This document shows positions 1 to 5,909 of a DNA stretch of 64,000 nucleotides, piece by piece. Origin of the DNA: Methylococcaceae bacterium (GTDB taxonomy: Bacteria; Pseudomonadota; Gammaproteobacteria; Methylococcales; Methylomonadaceae); assembly GCA_013140705.1 (NCBI GenBank), contig JABFSH010000019.1, forward strand, positions 1 to 64,000. The letters are read 5' to 3'. Made by a program: the position numbers and the translations under genes. Position 1 is the stretch's first letter. Each line of letters starts with the position of its first letter. Below the pieces are notes generated by a model. It was given only the letters and a program-made list of their open reading frames with translations, was not told the origin of the DNA and searched no databases.

Positions 1-222
1 GGCGTCGCTGTTGGTTTTGGCGTCGCAGTCGGCGCTGGTGTTGGTGTCGCTGTTGGTTTTGGCGTCGCAGTCGGCGCTGGTGTTGGCGTTGCTGTCGGTG
101 CCGGTGTTGGCGTCGCCGTTGGTTTTGGCGTTGGTGTCGCCGTTGGTTTTGGCGTTGGTGTCGCCGTTGGTTTTGGCGTTGGTGTCGCCGTTGGTTTTGG
201 CGTTGGTGTCGCCGTTGGCGAT
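1..222. repeat. Tandem 24-bp repeat encoding Pro/Thr octapeptides
   Basis: Units of 24 bp (minus strand CCAACGGCGACACCAACGCC plus AAAA, encoding PTATPTPK) run head to tail. At least four near-identical copies lie at about 110-222, and degenerate PAP/PKP variants lie at 1-110. The unit length is a multiple of three, so gain or loss of copies keeps the frame. The array probably continues beyond the left edge. Confidence 0.85.
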
Positions 223-572
223 TTTAGACATGCCGCCAAAGTAGCATAAGCAGGGCTAGTGGCAGTTCTGTGAGTAGAATTATTTTCAAAAGCTGTTATA
301 CAAGCCGTATTTAGTCTAGCTTTTGGATTAGTATTTGAAGTATGACAAGTCATACAGGAACTCGCGGAAAAAGCAAGGATATCTGCGATTGGTAAGCCAG
401 GGACAGATTGTAAATAAGTCAAATACTGTGATTCGGCAAACGCATCACCAGCCATAAATTGTGATCCGGATACTAATACCAAAGTGGCAATTGTGTTTCT
501 CAACTTGTTTGTTCTTTGAACAGGATGCTTATTAATCTCAATGCTATCTGTTTTCGTGGTTTGAATATTCAT
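1..572 (-). CDS. Secreted CxxCH protein with PTATPTPK-repeat region (partial, runs off left edge)
   Basis: The minus strand is open from an ATG at 572 to the window edge, about 190 residues with no stop. The start is preceded by TGAGGAC at ribosome-binding distance. Residues 1-46 look like a long signal peptide ending near GDAFA. Residues 73-77 are CMTCH, a c-type haem attachment motif, and two further Cys lie downstream. From about residue 120 the protein becomes a low-complexity chain of PTATPTPK and PTATPAP-type octapeptides that continues out of the window. The repeat is also regular at DNA level (24-bp period, 1-222), so copy number may vary. I infer a periplasmic or surface haem protein with an extended Pro/Thr linker, and whatever the linker joins lies outside. 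Function is not recognised. The apparent plus-strand reading frame over the repeat is a shadow. Confidence 0.72.
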
Positions 573-994
573 AAACTGAGTCCTCAAAAATTATCGTGAA
601 TGTAATAACCAAAAAACCGGATTCTTAAATTTAATCCTATGTTTAGGAGGTTGAAAAAAGTGTAGCGGCTAAAAATTAAACATTTCTTAAATGTTGGGTT
701 AAATATACCGTTGATTCTTAATTAAAAATGTGACCGGTTGTGCAATTCAAAATATATTAATTTTTAAGATTATTTTAATGATTGATAATTACCATGCTTT
801 TCCAAACGTGTCACGATATGCGCCTGACTCCGGGTGCAGCTATCTGAATATGTTGCAATGTTTCCTTACTCTATTTAACATACTTACCGATTACTCAGGG
901 ACAAGGAAGCAAACTTAACCGCCTTACCAGCATGTGCCGCTATTAAATTAGCTGCTATAATTCAATCCATGTTTCTTCCATCTAATGGTGACTT
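573..994. other. Intergenic gap between divergent genes
   Basis: This AT-rich spacer lies between the minus-strand CxxCH protein and the plus-strand thioredoxin gene, so it should carry both promoters. I see no convincing -35/-10 pair, no RNA gene and no repeat. A 62-codon frame at 730-918 has no ribosome-binding site and no recognisable protein character, so I do not call it. Confidence 0.5.
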
Positions 995-1504
995 ATGAAA
1001 ATTAATAAAAAATTGATTACTTTCACAATTGCAACAATCATTGGCGCTGCCGCCCAAACAAGTCATGCGACCGAAGTGGGCCAAGCGGCCCCACAATTCA
1101 CGCTGCCTACCCTGCAACAGGATCAACCCACCGCATTGAAAAGTTATGCCGGCAAAGTGATCTATCTGGATTTTTGGGCTTCATGGTGCGCGCCTTGCCG
1201 AACATCTTTTCCGTTGCTGAACAAAATGCACGAAAAACTCAAGGCACAGGGTTTTGAAGTGGTCGCCATCAATTTGGACGAAGATAAAGCAGCCGCCGAA
1301 AAATTTTTAAAGGAATTCCCCGTCAGCTTTACAGTATTGCGTGACGCCAAAGGCGAATGGGCGGATCAGTTTGTCGTAGAATCCATGCCTACTTCTTTTA
1401 TCATTGATAAACAGGGTGTCGTTCAAAACATTCATCACGGCTTTAACAGCGATGACATCAAAGAACTCGAAGAGAAAGTCACTAAATTATTAGCCCAAAA
1501 GTAA
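995..1504 (+). CDS. TlpA/ResA-type periplasmic thioredoxin
   Basis: A 169-residue protein with an N-terminal signal peptide (cleavage likely after about residue 25, SHA|TEVG) followed by an AhpC/TSA-TlpA thioredoxin fold. The redox motif WCAPC is at residues 64-68, and the cis-Pro region ESMPTSFIID is near residue 132. Such proteins reduce or oxidise disulphides of exported substrates, often Cys-containing haem or metal proteins. It is the first gene of a run with the Cys-tailed small lipoprotein (12 nt downstream) and the beta-barrel gene, so its likely substrate is the neighbouring lipoprotein with its CGC tail. That pairing is inference from position. Family assignment is firm; the specific partner is not proven. 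Confidence 0.88.
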   Translation: MKINKKLITFTIATIIGAAAQTSHATEVGQAAPQFTLPTLQQDQPTALKSYAGKVIYLDFWASWCAPCRTSFPLLNKMHEKLKAQGFEVVAINLDEDKAAAEKFLKEFPVSFTVLRDAKGEWADQFVVESMPTSFIIDKQGVVQNIHHGFNSDDIKELEEKVTKLLAQK

Positions 1505-1515
1505 GGGGAGTTTTT

Positions 1516-1731
1516 ATGAATTTCATTTATCGTAGCCTATTAATAGTCCTGATACTTTCAGGAGCTGCCTGCACTGAGGTCATGCCCAGACAACGGGGTA
1601 ATTTAGCCCTGCCTCAAATGGCCTTTACCACTGACGGCTTAGAATTCGGCTTACGGCAGCATACTGCGTTCAGTAAGGAAGCGGCAGCCGGTGGTTATGG
1701 CGGCGGCGGTGGCGGTTGCGGATGTAATTAA
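1516..1731 (+). CDS. DUF4266 small lipoprotein with Gly-rich CGC tail
   Basis: A 71-residue protein with a hydrophobic N-terminus and a lipobox-like SGAAC (Cys19), followed by a short charged middle and a striking tail GGYGGGGGGCGCN at the extreme C-terminus. This is the pattern of the uncharacterised DUF4266 family. The start has a strong ribosome-binding site (AAGGGGAG, 1503-1510). It sits 12 nt after the TlpA-like gene and about 180 nt before the DUF3570 gene, an arrangement I recognise from other proteobacteria. Function is unknown. A Gly-rich segment with two Cys one residue apart could bind a metal, carry a cofactor or be the disulphide substrate of the neighbouring thioredoxin. Confidence 0.8.
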   Translation: MNFIYRSLLIVLILSGAACTEVMPRQRGNLALPQMAFTTDGLEFGLRQHTAFSKEAAAGGYGGGGGGCGCN

Positions 1732-1915
1732 AGTCTTTGGGGACATCCCATTCACATCATTACTTCCTTCCCGTCGCACAATTAAGCACAGGGATGAAAA
1801 AACTGAGACGCTGTCTATAATACGCATCGCCTTATACTTCTCTGAGGAGAGGGTGTTTATTGAACGCCCTCCGACCTGACTCAATTCTTAATCACTTACC
1901 TAAAATGACGCTGAT

Positions 1916-3223
1916 ATGAAAAAAAATGAAAAATCCAACAAACTGACACAACTAACCTGTGCAGCCTTGGCCCTTCCCGGCTTAGTGCAGACTGCATCTG
2001 CCGGGCGGGTTGAAGAAACTTATAATGCTGATTTTCAATACGGCCATTACTCCGAAAGTAATCAGCGTATGGATATCGATATTTTTGAGGGCGCTATTTC
2101 GGTACCTATCGGCAAGTCCATGACGGCCACCGTAAACATGGTTAAAGATGTTATTGGCGGTGCGTCGCCCATCTATAACCAAAGAGATCCTGTAACCGGA
2201 AAAATATACCAAGTTCTCAGTGCCGCATCAGCTACCAGCGATTCCAAATGTGGCGACACCATCTGCGAACAACGTGATTCAATCAGCGGGGGATTGACTA
2301 AATTTTTTGATAAGGGATCGCTCAGCCTGGGCGGTGGTTATTCAAGAGAACACGATTACGCGTCGAAATTTTTCAATACCGCCGCCAGCCTGGATTTCAA
2401 CAAAAAACTGACCACACTGAATTTTTCCGCGTCGTTGGCATTTGATGATATTCATCCATCCGACTCCGCCTATACCATCTATGATGAAAATAATTTCAAG
2501 GCTCACAAAACCAGTCAACAATATCTGCTGGGCGTCTCGCAAGTTATTGATAAAGACTCCCTGATACTCAGCAATATAACTTTTGGTTATCATAGTGGTT
2601 TTTTGACCGACCCTTATAAGCAGGTAACTTTTTATGGGAGCCAAGAAATTAGTGGCATTCCTTTTCCTCTTCCTCTTCCTGAAAACGGCCTTTCCATTCA
2701 AGAAAAGCGGCCCAGAGAACGATTTGAATGGGCATGGCTAACTCAGTATGTTCGGCATTTTGAACAATTTAATCATGCCGCCTTACATACAGACTACCGC
2801 TTTAGTACCAACGATTGGGGTGTCAATGCCCACACCGTCGAGTTCAGTTGGCATCAACCGGTCGCCGATGGCTGGCAGGTCATCCCCCGCTTTCGGTATT
2901 ATTCGCAAGACCAAGCGGATTTCTACCAACCCGTCTTTGATGGCACCGTTATCTTTGACCCTGTTTCAGAATCTTCCATTGCTAAAAATATGGGAGCCTA
3001 TTCCAGTGACTACCGCTTGGCTGGATTTGGCACAGTGTCTGGCGGTATAAAATTAAGTAAGGAGTTTACCGATTTGAAACCTCTAGCTCATTTAAAATTC
3101 CAAACTGGCTTTGAATATTATGCGCATAAATCCGAGTTTCAATTAGGCGGCACCAATCATGATGGCAATTTTGCCGACTTTGGTTATTACCTGTTAACAG
3201 CATCCGTCAATCTGAAATATTGA
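1916..3223 (+). CDS. DUF3570 family outer-membrane beta-barrel-like protein
   Basis: A 435-residue protein starting with a signal peptide (about 29 residues, ending SAG). It continues with alternating aromatic-rich strands (YNADFQYGHYSES, SLSLGGGYSREHDYAS) and a terminal strand ending in tyrosine (YLLTASVNLKY), as expected of an outer-membrane beta-barrel. Cys residues at about 104 and 109 (KCGDTICEQ) sit in an extracellular-type loop and could be oxidised. The sequence fits DUF3570. It is the third gene of the thioredoxin-DUF4266-DUF3570 set. I infer that the small lipoprotein and the barrel form an export or surface-display unit, but no biochemical role is known. Confidence 0.78.
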   Translation: MKKNEKSNKLTQLTCAALALPGLVQTASAGRVEETYNADFQYGHYSESNQRMDIDIFEGAISVPIGKSMTATVNMVKDVIGGASPIYNQRDPVTGKIYQVLSAASATSDSKCGDTICEQRDSISGGLTKFFDKGSLSLGGGYSREHDYASKFFNTAASLDFNKKLTTLNFSASLAFDDIHPSDSAYTIYDENNFKAHKTSQQYLLGVSQVIDKDSLILSNITFGYHSGFLTDPYKQVTFYGSQEISGIPFPLPLPENGLSIQEKRPRERFEWAWLTQYVRHFEQFNHAALHTDYRFSTNDWGVNAHTVEFSWHQPVADGWQVIPRFRYYSQDQADFYQPVFDGTVIFDPVSESSIAKNMGAYSSDYRLAGFGTVSGGIKLSKEFTDLKPLAHLKFQTGFEYYAHKSEFQLGGTNHDGNFADFGYYLLTASVNLKY

Positions 3224-3276
3224 TTCAAACTATTTCTTGTCAAACAACAGGCACAATTCAACCAGCCTATAAAATT

Positions 3277-3314
3277 ACGCTACCGGTATTTCACCAAAGA
3301 TTGACCGGTAGCGT
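3277..3314 (+). terminator. Hairpin downstream of the DUF3570 gene
   Basis: Perfect 11-bp inverted repeat ACGCTACCGGT (3277-3287) and ACCGGTAGCGT (3304-3314) with a 16-nt loop, 54 nt after the DUF3570 stop. There is no clear U-run after it, so it may be a processing or stability hairpin rather than a classical terminator. Confidence 0.45.
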
Positions 3315-3460
3315 TATCAACCCAGCAATCTTGTTGGACAGATATCACATCTTCTCCCGATTTTGTTGTTACTCACCAATCATAAAAGTTCAGAATTTGT
3401 TTGAAATATTAACAGCCCGATTCACATTTCTTAAGTCAATCCAACAAATACGACTGCACA

Positions 3461-3490
3461 ACCAATACGAATCAATTGATTCGTATTGGT
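3461..3490. repeat. Perfect 30-bp palindrome
   Basis: ACCAATACGAATCAA followed immediately by its exact reverse complement, with no spacer. Followed by CTTTT on the plus strand. It could be a terminator on either strand or a symmetric protein-binding site. Confidence 0.7.
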
Positions 3491-3629
3491 CTTTTAAACA
3501 TCCTTTAGCGCAAATATTTCCTGATTTTGTATAACTTGACACTGCGCTCAAGCAGACGTCATACCGACATGGATTGCCAGTATCCACAGAACACAAGAAT
3601 GTGACGCACTGAAGTAATCATTGAATTTA

Positions 3630-3712
3630 CATCCGCGCCGCGCAAACCTCCTAGGGTGACGCAATTCAAGCACCATGGCAATTATCTCATAGCTATTTTG
3701 GCTGAAGCTTAT
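3630..3712 (+). promoter_or_regulatory. Possible degenerate c-di-GMP-I (GEMM) riboswitch-like block
   Basis: The stretch GCAAACC-TCCTA-GGGTGACGCAA at about 3642-3664 matches the conserved first half of the GEMM-I motif (GCAAACC, short hairpin, GG-GACGCAA). An ATAGC...GGCTG segment lies about 30 nt further on. The expected AAGCC after GACGCAA is interrupted and the hairpin stem is short, so this may be decayed or coincidental. The next gene is dsbD, about 260 nt downstream. Confidence 0.2.
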
Positions 3713-3971
3713 ACGTAAACAGAAAATACATCACCAGACTATCGGGAAAATTTATACGTATCAACCTAAATCAATAAACTTAAGCGTGACCAAGCACACA
3801 CTTCAAGTACTAATATGTGTCTACAATTAAGTTACATTTAATGTTAAAGACTTAAAATAACAAACATGCATAAATTTTTTAATTCTTAGGCATTAAAAAA
3901 TTGGTATTTGATTTTTTTGGAATGAGTACATTTAGGATAATTTTAACAACCTATCAAATAGGGTGACTACT

Positions 3972-5909
3972 ATGAAGAGCTTACTATCAATATTAATGCT
4001 GTGGACGCTAAGCACTGCCTTAGCCTACGCAGAAATACCCCAGGCAAGTATTAGTGTAACACCACTCAATACTGATCACTGGCCCGCACAGTATCGGTTA
4101 ACGTTAACTGTTCCTAAAGATCATCACGCCTATCTTGATACCGGTGATGAGAATATTTATATCCCGGTGACGATTGACCCTAACTCAAAACTGGCCGCTT
4201 CTGGCCTCGCTTTAAGTAAGTTAGAAAAGCCTAGCGGTGTTCATGATGACCTGGTTAAAGCCAATGTTTTACGAGATAATGGCGACTTCAACCTGGAAAT
4301 AGCAGAAACCGGCAAGAAGTCTACAAACTTAAAATCCACCGATCTTGAAATCACCTATCAGTTATGTAATGAATTGACCAACGTCTGTTTCCGTCCACAA
4401 AATACTTCTGTAAATCTGGTTCTTCCAGCTACAGCCATTGCGGCAGCTACACCAACACAATCCGTTGCTCAAACAGATGAGTCTGAGTCATTAAGCTTTA
4501 TGGACAGGCTATTATTGCTGTTTCAAAACAATAAAGACAATATGATTATCATGTTTGGCTTGATGTTGATTGCAGGTCTCTTATCGGTTGCAACACCTTG
4601 CGTTTATCCCATGCTGCCCATTACTTCCATGTTCATTGTCGGCAGAGCCAATGGCGAAGCCAGCAAGGAAAAGCAGCATGCACTGGCTTATTTAGTCGGC
4701 ATGGTAATCACTTACATGGCATTAGGCTTAATGGCAGGAATGACCGGCGGCGCCTTTAATACCTTTATGCAGTCGGCTTTTGTTAATTTGGGATTTGCCG
4801 TATTTTTTGCTTTTTTTGCCATCGCTTTACTGGGCTTCTATGAACTCAGTTTTATGCAAAACGAAGTTCACGAAATGGATCAGAAAACTTCCAGCGTAAA
4901 AGGCGTAACAGGAACGTTGCTGATGGGTTGTGTAGCCGGTCTGGTCATCTCACCTTGCGTTGGCCCGATTGTTTTCGCATTACTGTTACAAGTTGCAGAT
5001 AATATTGCCGCAAAAGCTGATGCCTTAGCGTTAACTGGTCAAACTTTAAGCTTTTGGGATAAGTTGACGATATCATCACAAGGCAGTGTCATGATGTCCG
5101 GTTTTGGTTTGGGCGTGGGTTTGCCGTTTTTCATTATTAGCGTAGTAAAGTTCAAAAAACTGCCCAAAGCCGGTTATTGGATGAACAAAATCAAATATGC
5201 TTTCGGCTTTATGATTCTGTATTTCGCTTATACCTATCTGCAAAAAGGCATGGGTGTATTAGGTGTTGATCCTTCAACTACTCAGTCGCTTGCTATTGGT
5301 TTGGTGGCTATCTGGATCGCTGTCGTACACTGCCATGTGTTGAGTTTGATGCCTCAAGATGCACAGCCCAATCAAAAGATGCAACATTATGTTGGTGCAA
5401 TTTCTTTAATCATAGGCGGTTGGCTGGTGGTTGCCGGCTTAGGGCATTTGCCAATCATGAATACGGCACAAGCGGAATCTTATGTTCAAAACGGAGCCAT
5501 GGCTGAAAACTCTGGTTCAAAAACAGCTCCAGTAGCTTTGACCGTACAAAAAGAAGCCGGAATATCCTGGTACAGAAGTTATGATGCTGCAATAAAAGCG
5601 GCCAAAGAAACTGGAAAGCCAATCTTCATCGACTTTTATGCTAGCTGGTGTGCAAACTGCACTGAGTTCAAAAAGGAATCAGCGAATAATGCTGAATTAA
5701 ATCAAGCACTTAGAGAAAAAGCGATTGCAGTTAAATTAGTTGACAAAGAGCCTGATTTTGAAAAGTTCCGTGCCGACAAAGAACATCGTCAATTAAAAAT
5801 TGGTCTGCCTTACTTTGCCATTATCACACCGGATGGCAAATTGACTTGGTCCGGTACGGATTATAAAGCTACTCAAAAAATGGTAGCTGAGCTAAATAGA
5901 TTGTCCTGA
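3972..5909 (+). CDS. dsbD: Thiol:disulphide interchange protein DsbD
   Basis: A 645-residue inner-membrane electron shuttle that moves reductant from cytoplasmic thioredoxin to periplasmic Dsb and TlpA-type proteins. The order is: signal peptide; N-terminal periplasmic domain with paired Cys (about residues 131 and 138, LCNELTNVC); eight-helix membrane domain with the two key Cys-Pro motifs (TPCVYPMLP and SPCVGPIVF); C-terminal thioredoxin domain with WCANC. I start at ATG 3972 because AGGGTG at 3960-3965 is correctly spaced, although an in-frame GTG lies three codons earlier. It is a stand-alone transcript with its own terminator at 5961-5990. It would supply electrons to the TlpA-like protein about 2.5 kb upstream. 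Confidence 0.96.
   Translation: MKSLLSILMLWTLSTALAYAEIPQASISVTPLNTDHWPAQYRLTLTVPKDHHAYLDTGDENIYIPVTIDPNSKLAASGLALSKLEKPSGVHDDLVKANVLRDNGDFNLEIAETGKKSTNLKSTDLEITYQLCNELTNVCFRPQNTSVNLVLPATAIAAATPTQSVAQTDESESLSFMDRLLLLFQNNKDNMIIMFGLMLIAGLLSVATPCVYPMLPITSMFIVGRANGEASKEKQHALAYLVGMVITYMALGLMAGMTGGAFNTFMQSAFVNLGFAVFFAFFAIALLGFYELSFMQNEVHEMDQKTSSVKGVTGTLLMGCVAGLVISPCVGPIVFALLLQVADNIAAKADALALTGQTLSFWDKLTISSQGSVMMSGFGLGVGLPFFIISVVKFKKLPKAGYWMNKIKYAFGFMILYFAYTYLQKGMGVLGVDPSTTQSLAIGLVAIWIAVVHCHVLSLMPQDAQPNQKMQHYVGAISLIIGGWLVVAGLGHLPIMNTAQAESYVQNGAMAENSGSKTAPVALTVQKEAGISWYRSYDAAIKAAKETGKPIFIDFYASWCANCTEFKKESANNAELNQALREKAIAVKLVDKEPDFEKFRADKEHRQLKIGLPYFAIITPDGKLTWSGTDYKATQKMVAELNRLS

Follow-up and report, generated by a model that had tools for sequence, protein, structure and literature searches.

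Gene clusters that bring together DsbD, a thioredoxin, DUF4266, DUF3570 and the flavin transferase ApbE were reported by Meheust et al. in 2021 (PMC8238504; for this and the other papers cited, we refer to the parts of their text that were available). In that study, DUF3570 from Chlorobium (C. luteolum) is flavinylated by ApbE at two [S/T]GA[S/T] sites, the CXC end of DUF4266 is said to be one that "may undergo redox cycling", and the iron transporter VIT1 is found in 25 clusters (PMC8238504). The ApbE motif is D-x-x-[S/T]-G-A-[S/T], with FMN attached to its last residue; in another ApbE substrate, replacement of the motif Gly by Ala left flavinylation at about 50%, and without the acceptor residue none occurred (PMC12052999). 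A 2024 AlphaFold study modelled other flavinylated proteins (PMC11334425). Our literature search, with subscription papers and preprints outside its scope, found only PMC8238504 to treat DUF4266 and DUF3570 by name, and no experiment on a relay from thiols to a flavin.

Two further kinds of systems are relevant. In Erv-type sulfhydryl oxidases, a shuttle disulfide (CXC, CXXC or CX4C) carried by a flexible loop or tail feeds the flavin, passing electrons to a disulfide that lies beside it (PMC3509050). Methane oxidisers are reported to use iron minerals or electrodes at low oxygen, and electrogenic methane oxidation through a putative porin-cytochrome complex was reported for Methylobacter; the words "ApbE" and "thioredoxin" are absent from the main text of that paper (PMC13322032).

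Here, we analysed a locus near the start of a 64,000-nucleotide stretch of DNA from a Methylococcaceae bacterium (hereafter, the window). A preliminary description had presented its TlpA thioredoxin, lipoprotein and barrel as an undescribed system, in which DUF3570 had no assigned function. The cluster type, the flavinylation of DUF3570 and the CXC end were all published in 2021, and DUF3570 therefore has a demonstrated property, its flavinylation (PMC8238504).

The gene cluster and its recurrence

Four genes on the same strand occupy positions 995-5909 and encode TlpA, DUF4266, DUF3570 and DsbD. DsbD, a thioredoxin-like protein, DUF4266 and DUF3570, the combination of a DsbD-type cluster, are thus found together at this locus, and the cluster lacks apbE. 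The features are the following:

3..587, minus strand: predicted exported protein carrying one CxxCH motif (SCMTCH) and Thr-Pro repeats; the gene runs divergently from TlpA and is truncated at the contig end
995..1504, plus strand: TlpA/ResA-like exported thioredoxin, 169 aa, active site WCAPC (Cys codons 1187-1189 and 1196-1198)
1516..1731, plus strand: DUF4266 lipoprotein, 71 aa, probable lipidated Cys19 (1570-1572), mature part of 53 residues
1699-1716 (Gly run) and 1717-1725 (CGC), followed by a terminal Asn, plus strand: DUF4266 tail, C-terminus GGYGGGGGGCGCN-stop
1916..3223, plus strand: DUF3570 (PF12094), predicted outer-membrane beta-barrel, 435 aa, Cys112/Cys117
2156..2167, plus strand: putative flavinylation site 1, GGAS within DVIGGAS (consensus D-x-x-[S/T]-G-A-[S/T])
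2219..2230, plus strand: putative flavinylation site 2, SAAS, usually SGAS in relatives
2249..2266, plus strand: CX4C pair CGDTIC next to flavinylation site 2, both Cys present in 38/47 clade rows
3963..5909, plus strand: DsbD-like transmembrane thiol reductase, DsbD_TM plus Thioredoxin_7

The coordinates and sequence features first given for 995-3223 agree with the list of open reading frames and their translations. In Pfam, TlpA matches Redoxin (8.3e-27), the lipoprotein DUF4266 (PF14086; 2.2e-19, 70.5 bits against a cut-off of 27) and the barrel DUF3570 (1.5e-102, 344 bits against a cut-off of 25). The top NCBIfam match of TlpA is ResA, with a score below the cut-off of the model, and the lipoprotein has no match in NCBIfam, DUF4266 being all that Pfam gives for it. 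The true start of DsbD may be the in-frame ATG at 3972. DUF4266 and DUF3570 are separated by a spacer of 184 bases (1732-1915) in the window; in several relatives the two genes overlap or almost touch.

Among 150 Pseudomonadota genomes, DUF3570 is found in 12, and DUF4266 scores above its cut-off in the same 12, with the two genes side by side; a 13th genome has a DUF4266 match below the cut-off. The co-occurrence across genomes that the preliminary description proposed as a check is thus borne out. ApbE is present in all 12 genomes with DUF3570, versus 122 of the 150 overall. As read from the coordinates, it lies within about 1.5 kb in eight of them, about 11-12 kb away in two, and on another contig in the window's genome and in G001.

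A scan of genome contigs also yielded 377 relatives; we kept the best 80, a set of 79 loci that is biased towards close relatives. The short-barrel ortholog group comprises 46 of these loci (L031-L074, L078 and L097), whose titles name methanotrophs (38), an uncultured proteobacterium (7) or a Thiotrichaceae bacterium (1). Clustering of their flanks recovered DUF3570 in 46, TlpA in 43 and DsbD in 41 loci, several of the contigs being truncated (best 80 of 377 relatives); the loci are related, and these counts are therefore not independent. This recurrence confirms the three exported proteins as a real and conserved unit. TlpA, DUF4266 and DUF3570 were rightly grouped; the next gene, DsbD, with homologs in 41 of the 46 ortholog loci, had been left out of the unit. 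A plasmid origin of the cluster was rejected: among plasmid records, the window DUF3570 has two matches, both from Hymenobacter (E 2e-8, less than 65% covered), and the protein of L018 has none.

A predicted exported one-haem protein often lies beside the cluster. To count as such, a protein had to contain one CxxCH among its first 110 residues, have a hydrophobic stretch near its N-terminus and be shorter than 600 residues. Of the 31 loci whose flank extends for 1.5 kb or more, 17 encode one on the DsbD strand no more than 600 bases after DsbD, and in 6 of 34 loci one is found up to 1 kb ahead of TlpA (each from the best 80 of 377 relatives). Where both flanks could be read, 16 of 23 loci have a one-haem neighbour and seven have none (best 80 of 377), and the same rule applied to open reading frames of at least 90 aa further away selected 1 of 193. 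The window protein at 3..587 fits the rule by eye and stands outside the scored set; positions 1-230, at the contig end, code for Thr-Pro repeats within this minus-strand gene. The C-terminal parts of the one-haem proteins differ widely, and several carry His/Asp tails. We set aside the idea that they form a known family, one of nine (L036, a cyclophilin domain) scoring above the Pfam cut-off. The window protein has a match to MtrC/F in Pfam at E 0.03, below the cut-off. In the available part of PMC8238504, we did not see the one-haem linkage.

The Cys-Gly-Cys tail of DUF4266

The DUF4266 lipoprotein ends in GGGGGGCGCN. Of 380 open reading frames of at least 40 aa in the window, three have a CxC within the last five residues, and DUF4266 is the sole case of a Gly run plus CGC at the C-terminus, which upholds the earlier view that this tail is specific. 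The tails of relatives, whose alignment had also been proposed, point the same way: GGGCGC is invariant in 14 of 14 diverse DUF4266s, and 77 of the 79 rows from the 79 fetched loci end in CGC[NY], with 49 CGCN, 28 CGCY and two exceptions (best 80 of 377 relatives). In two metagenome-assembled genomes, the tail of L060 reads GGGCN, its first Cys being lost, and the protein of L052 reads on beyond an internal GGGCGCN, past the usual stop. A DUF4266 copy on a Bacteroidota plasmid also ends in CGCN.

The last residue of the tail tracks the type of barrel. CGCN accompanies short stand-alone barrels in 48 rows and CGCY accompanies fused DUF3570 forms of about 900 aa in 28 (best 80 of 377 relatives); L075, with a stop-to-stop frame of 532 residues, is for this reason the only CGCN row filed as long. 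Among the 14 diverse members, the final residue is Y in the three fused cases and N in the eleven short ones. This match suggests a contact between tail and barrel; the fused forms may be one clade, and it is therefore no proof.

Among 65 distinct locus rows, 54 give a mature lipoprotein of 53 residues, and a His at mature residue 31 is invariant in 65 rows (both best 80 of 377 relatives); in L018-L020 this His is replaced by Gln or Lys. The residue that follows the lipidated Cys decides between the inner and the outer membrane, Asp specifying the inner one. It is a residue other than Asp in all 72 rows where the pattern was found, and by this +2 rule DUF4266 is probably an outer-membrane lipoprotein; in L021 an Asp follows the presumed lipidated Cys, an exception that the rule would place in the inner membrane. 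The AF2 model consists of one helix with low confidence throughout, tail included (mean pLDDT 56.5), and we set aside a folded domain on this ground.

Fused forms make up three of the four DUF3570s in the window's genome (906-938 aa). The extra part, fused behind the barrel, has a His/Met-rich look and gave no Pfam match in the two that we tested. Contig C27 carries DUF4266 and a fused DUF3570 downstream of a CusCBA/CzcCBA-like operon for metal efflux that includes DUF3240 (L011:414-6218), an arrangement that hints at a connection between the fused form and metals; on C66 (L012), no DUF4266 or ApbE was found near the fused DUF3570. The 26 fused-form loci among the best 80 of 377 relatives (L079-L109) encode an exported protein of about 154 aa in 19 cases, an exported protein of about 297 aa in 13 and a spermidine-synthase-like membrane protein of about 517 aa in eight. 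Tandem fused DUF3570 arrays occur in a Methyloglobulus and a Methylococcaceae genome (L098 and L087), with three DUF3570 and three DUF4266 in L098, and six DUF3570 frames and one DUF4266 in L087.

Flavin motifs, cysteine pair and predicted fold of DUF3570

The window DUF3570 does not carry two [S/T]GA[S/T] motifs: its sites, GGAS and SAAS, are both off consensus and keep their acceptor serines. Among 53 short barrels (best 80 of 377 relatives), both sites fit the motif in 33 and neither does in two, the window and L049. Because of these off-consensus motifs and of the Gly-to-Ala effect in another substrate (PMC12052999), flavinylation of the window DUF3570 may be weak or absent.

The window's genome encodes four DUF3570s, three DUF4266s and two ApbEs. 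The ApbE genes are found only on contigs C22 and C39, the window being on C73, and the contigs of the four DUF3570 genes all lack apbE. No ApbE match was found in window positions 3001-4200 at E up to 1, and a remnant of the gene in the gap was rejected by tblastn of 11 cluster ApbEs against 37 gap stretches, these window positions included (best E 0.02, L070). Among the 46 short-barrel ortholog loci, 11 have ApbE between DUF3570 and DsbD (best 80 of 377 relatives), and for 33 of the 35 loci without it, the corresponding genomes, 31 in number, each encode the enzyme somewhere. Thus, apbE is often unlinked from the DUF3570 locus, and the enzyme can therefore act in trans. For the window, we infer that the off-consensus sites would still be flavinylated by the genome's unlinked ApbE. 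A rule by which motif loss follows the loss of linked apbE was unsupported: counted by hand, both sites are on consensus in 21 of 36 ApbE-less rows (window included) versus 12 of 17 ApbE-linked rows, and L046, L048, L065, L078 and L102 have an off-consensus site despite ApbE in the locus.

The Cys pair of the barrel, also pointed out in the preliminary description, is real and conserved, and this holds only inside the window's short-barrel clade. It belongs to an insertion (CGxSIC) directly after site 2. Both Cys are present in 38 of 47 clade rows and neither in nine, no row having a single one (best 80 of 377 relatives); the pair is missing in all six other short rows. Its all-or-none conservation, at a position adjoining a flavin site, speaks for a redox role, and its absence from the nine clade rows and the six other short rows means that it is not essential to the system. 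On a quick tree, built without the Cys-pair columns and with its long outer branches flagged, the minimum number of changes is two for the Cys pair and six for ApbE linkage. We rejected a tie between the Cys pair and apbE linkage (three independent pairs on starred branches, six on all; sign test p 1).

The AF2 model of mature DUF3570, built from 43 aligned rows, reached a pLDDT of 89.7 and a pTM of 0.84, and both Foldseek and VIA-align matched it to outer-membrane barrels. VIA Z ranges from 15.3 to 21.6 across 50 listed entries, nearly all of them outer-membrane barrels. Foldseek, sorted by E-value, places FadL-type barrels first with a low TM-score, and the top VIA-align matches are BamA, a polysaccharide secretin, PelB and BcsC, which are 16-strand barrels. 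The secondary-structure line of the model has 22 strands of at least three residues; by our reading of it, the barrel would have 16 strands, provided that 207-216 and the short strands sit in loops. With 16 strands, the short turns and the long loops of the model fall on opposite sides, and its N- and C-termini share a side. In the model, loop 54-86 between strands 3 and 4 would hold the end of site 1 (52-55), site 2 (73-76) and Cys 83/88; its second half has a pLDDT of about 60. In porins, the side with the long loops is the outer side, and by this rule loop 54-86 would face outward. DUF3570 is thus predicted to be a closed transmembrane barrel of the outer membrane, a single long loop of which would carry the two flavin motifs together with the Cys pair. 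The words "barrel" and "porin" are absent from the main text of PMC8238504.

A candidate electron relay and its closest counterparts

We consider it moderately probable that the unit is an extracytoplasmic electron relay, running from DsbD to a surface acceptor and ending in an outer-membrane flavoprotein. DsbD would bring electrons across the inner membrane and reduce TlpA, which would reduce the Cys-Gly-Cys end of DUF4266. This lipoprotein, anchored in a membrane, probably the outer one, would be a flexible arm of almost constant length that carries a dithiol and hands electrons to FMN, which ApbE would have linked to serines in the DUF3570 loop between strands 3 and 4. In the window's clade, electrons from the tail would first be taken up by the CX4C pair that adjoins site 2. 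The flavin would then deliver them, one at a time, to a surface acceptor, either the neighbouring exported one-haem proteins or an extracellular metal or other oxidant. Within this scheme, we infer the direction of flow, the contact between tail and flavin, the outward loop and the final acceptor. Against its generality, L087 is the only fused-form locus with a DsbD homolog (E 6e-35). Extracellular electron transfer is a reasonable use, because electrogenic methane oxidation has been reported (PMC13322032); surface metal reduction fits equally.

A related idea, which we hold to be doubtful, is an outer-membrane conduit that works without a multihaem cytochrome. The Gly-rich tail of DUF4266 would thread into the barrel from the periplasm, and its CGC would meet FMN (and, in the clade, CX4C) in a surface loop folded inward, so that two-electron thiol chemistry would be turned into one-electron transfer to the one-haem proteins. 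If true, aerobic methanotrophs would gain a thiol-powered electron route out of the cell.

The cluster could instead handle metals, which we regard as unlikely: the CGC tail would bind copper, zinc or iron, TlpA and DsbD would keep its thiols free, and the barrel would move or reduce the metal. The RND efflux operon upstream of the C27 paralog (ACR_tran 5.5e-286) fits this, as do RND genes 3-5 kb from a Hymenobacter plasmid cluster, on the other strand. The second part of the fused barrels, His/Met-rich by eye, the His/Asp tails of several flanking one-haem proteins, the His at mature residue 31 of DUF4266 (invariant in 65 rows from the best 80 of 377 relatives) and VIT1 in 25 clusters (PMC8238504) speak for it as well. 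However, the proteins that recur alongside are redox proteins, no transporter is encoded in the window cluster, and the DUF4266 His gives way to Gln or Lys in L018-L020; surface metal reduction would also suit the electron relay, and the two readings are not exclusive.

Improbable in our view is a role in maintenance alone, with TlpA and DsbD keeping the Cys of DUF4266, the barrel or an apocytochrome reduced, in cytochrome c maturation or repair, and the barrel as a passive channel. ResA, the best NCBIfam match of TlpA (below the cut-off), has a role in apocytochrome reduction, and one-haem proteins do flank the cluster; yet our rule finds no haem neighbour in 7 of 23 testable loci (best 80 of 377), and this role would leave unexplained why DUF4266, DUF3570 and flavinylation occur together across the phylum. 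A covalently modified tail, bearing a thioether, haem or another cofactor, is the least probable of these alternatives, and very improbable. The preliminary description had proposed a metal-, cofactor- or thioether-bearing tail, for which we found no positive support, the recurrent partners being a thioredoxin, DsbD and a flavin transferase. A modification would suit the almost invariant Gly-rich CGC end and last residue, but the tail is without CxxCH, the lipoprotein is known only as DUF4266 of Pfam, without an NCBIfam match, and no maturase-like gene was seen by eye among the recurrent neighbour clusters listed.

If the electron relay is real, electrons would cross the outer membrane through a thioredoxin, a Cys-tailed lipoprotein and barrel flavins, with no string of haems. 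DUF4266 and DUF3570, families still named DUF, would gain a concrete role, methane oxidisers would have a possible second electron exit besides porin-cytochrome complexes, and the published remark on redox cycling of the CXC end would become a testable step (PMC8238504).

The DsbD-type systems of Meheust et al. and the window share DsbD, a thioredoxin-like protein, DUF4266 with a CXC end and DUF3570 (PMC8238504). Unlike those systems, as far as described in the available text, the window has no apbE in the cluster or on any DUF3570 contig and its motifs are off consensus, while it has a CX4C pair beside site 2 and a one-haem neighbour. Because it lacks both a cluster-borne apbE and the two motifs in their consensus form, we file the window copy as a variant, which probably works like the published DsbD-type system. 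To the known system, we add the Cys pair, the haem neighbour and the tail ends matched to barrel type.

Porin-cytochrome conduits of the MtrAB type, reported from the same bacterial group, resemble the locus in that redox partners accompany an outer-membrane barrel and may serve extracellular electron transfer; where the conduit has a decahaem cytochrome, the window unit would use a flavin and thiols. In Erv/ALR enzymes, as in the proposed relay, electrons would go from thioredoxin-type thiols to a CXC on a flexible tail, then (in the clade) to a pair near the flavin, and to the flavin itself. In contrast, no Erv/ALR FAD-binding domain is found among the Pfam and NCBIfam matches of the four cluster proteins, and tail and flavin sit on separate proteins; the window relay would use covalent FMN on a barrel rather than bound FAD, with net flow directed out through the outer membrane. 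Erv/ALR is the closest working parallel, by likeness of mechanism and not by membership.
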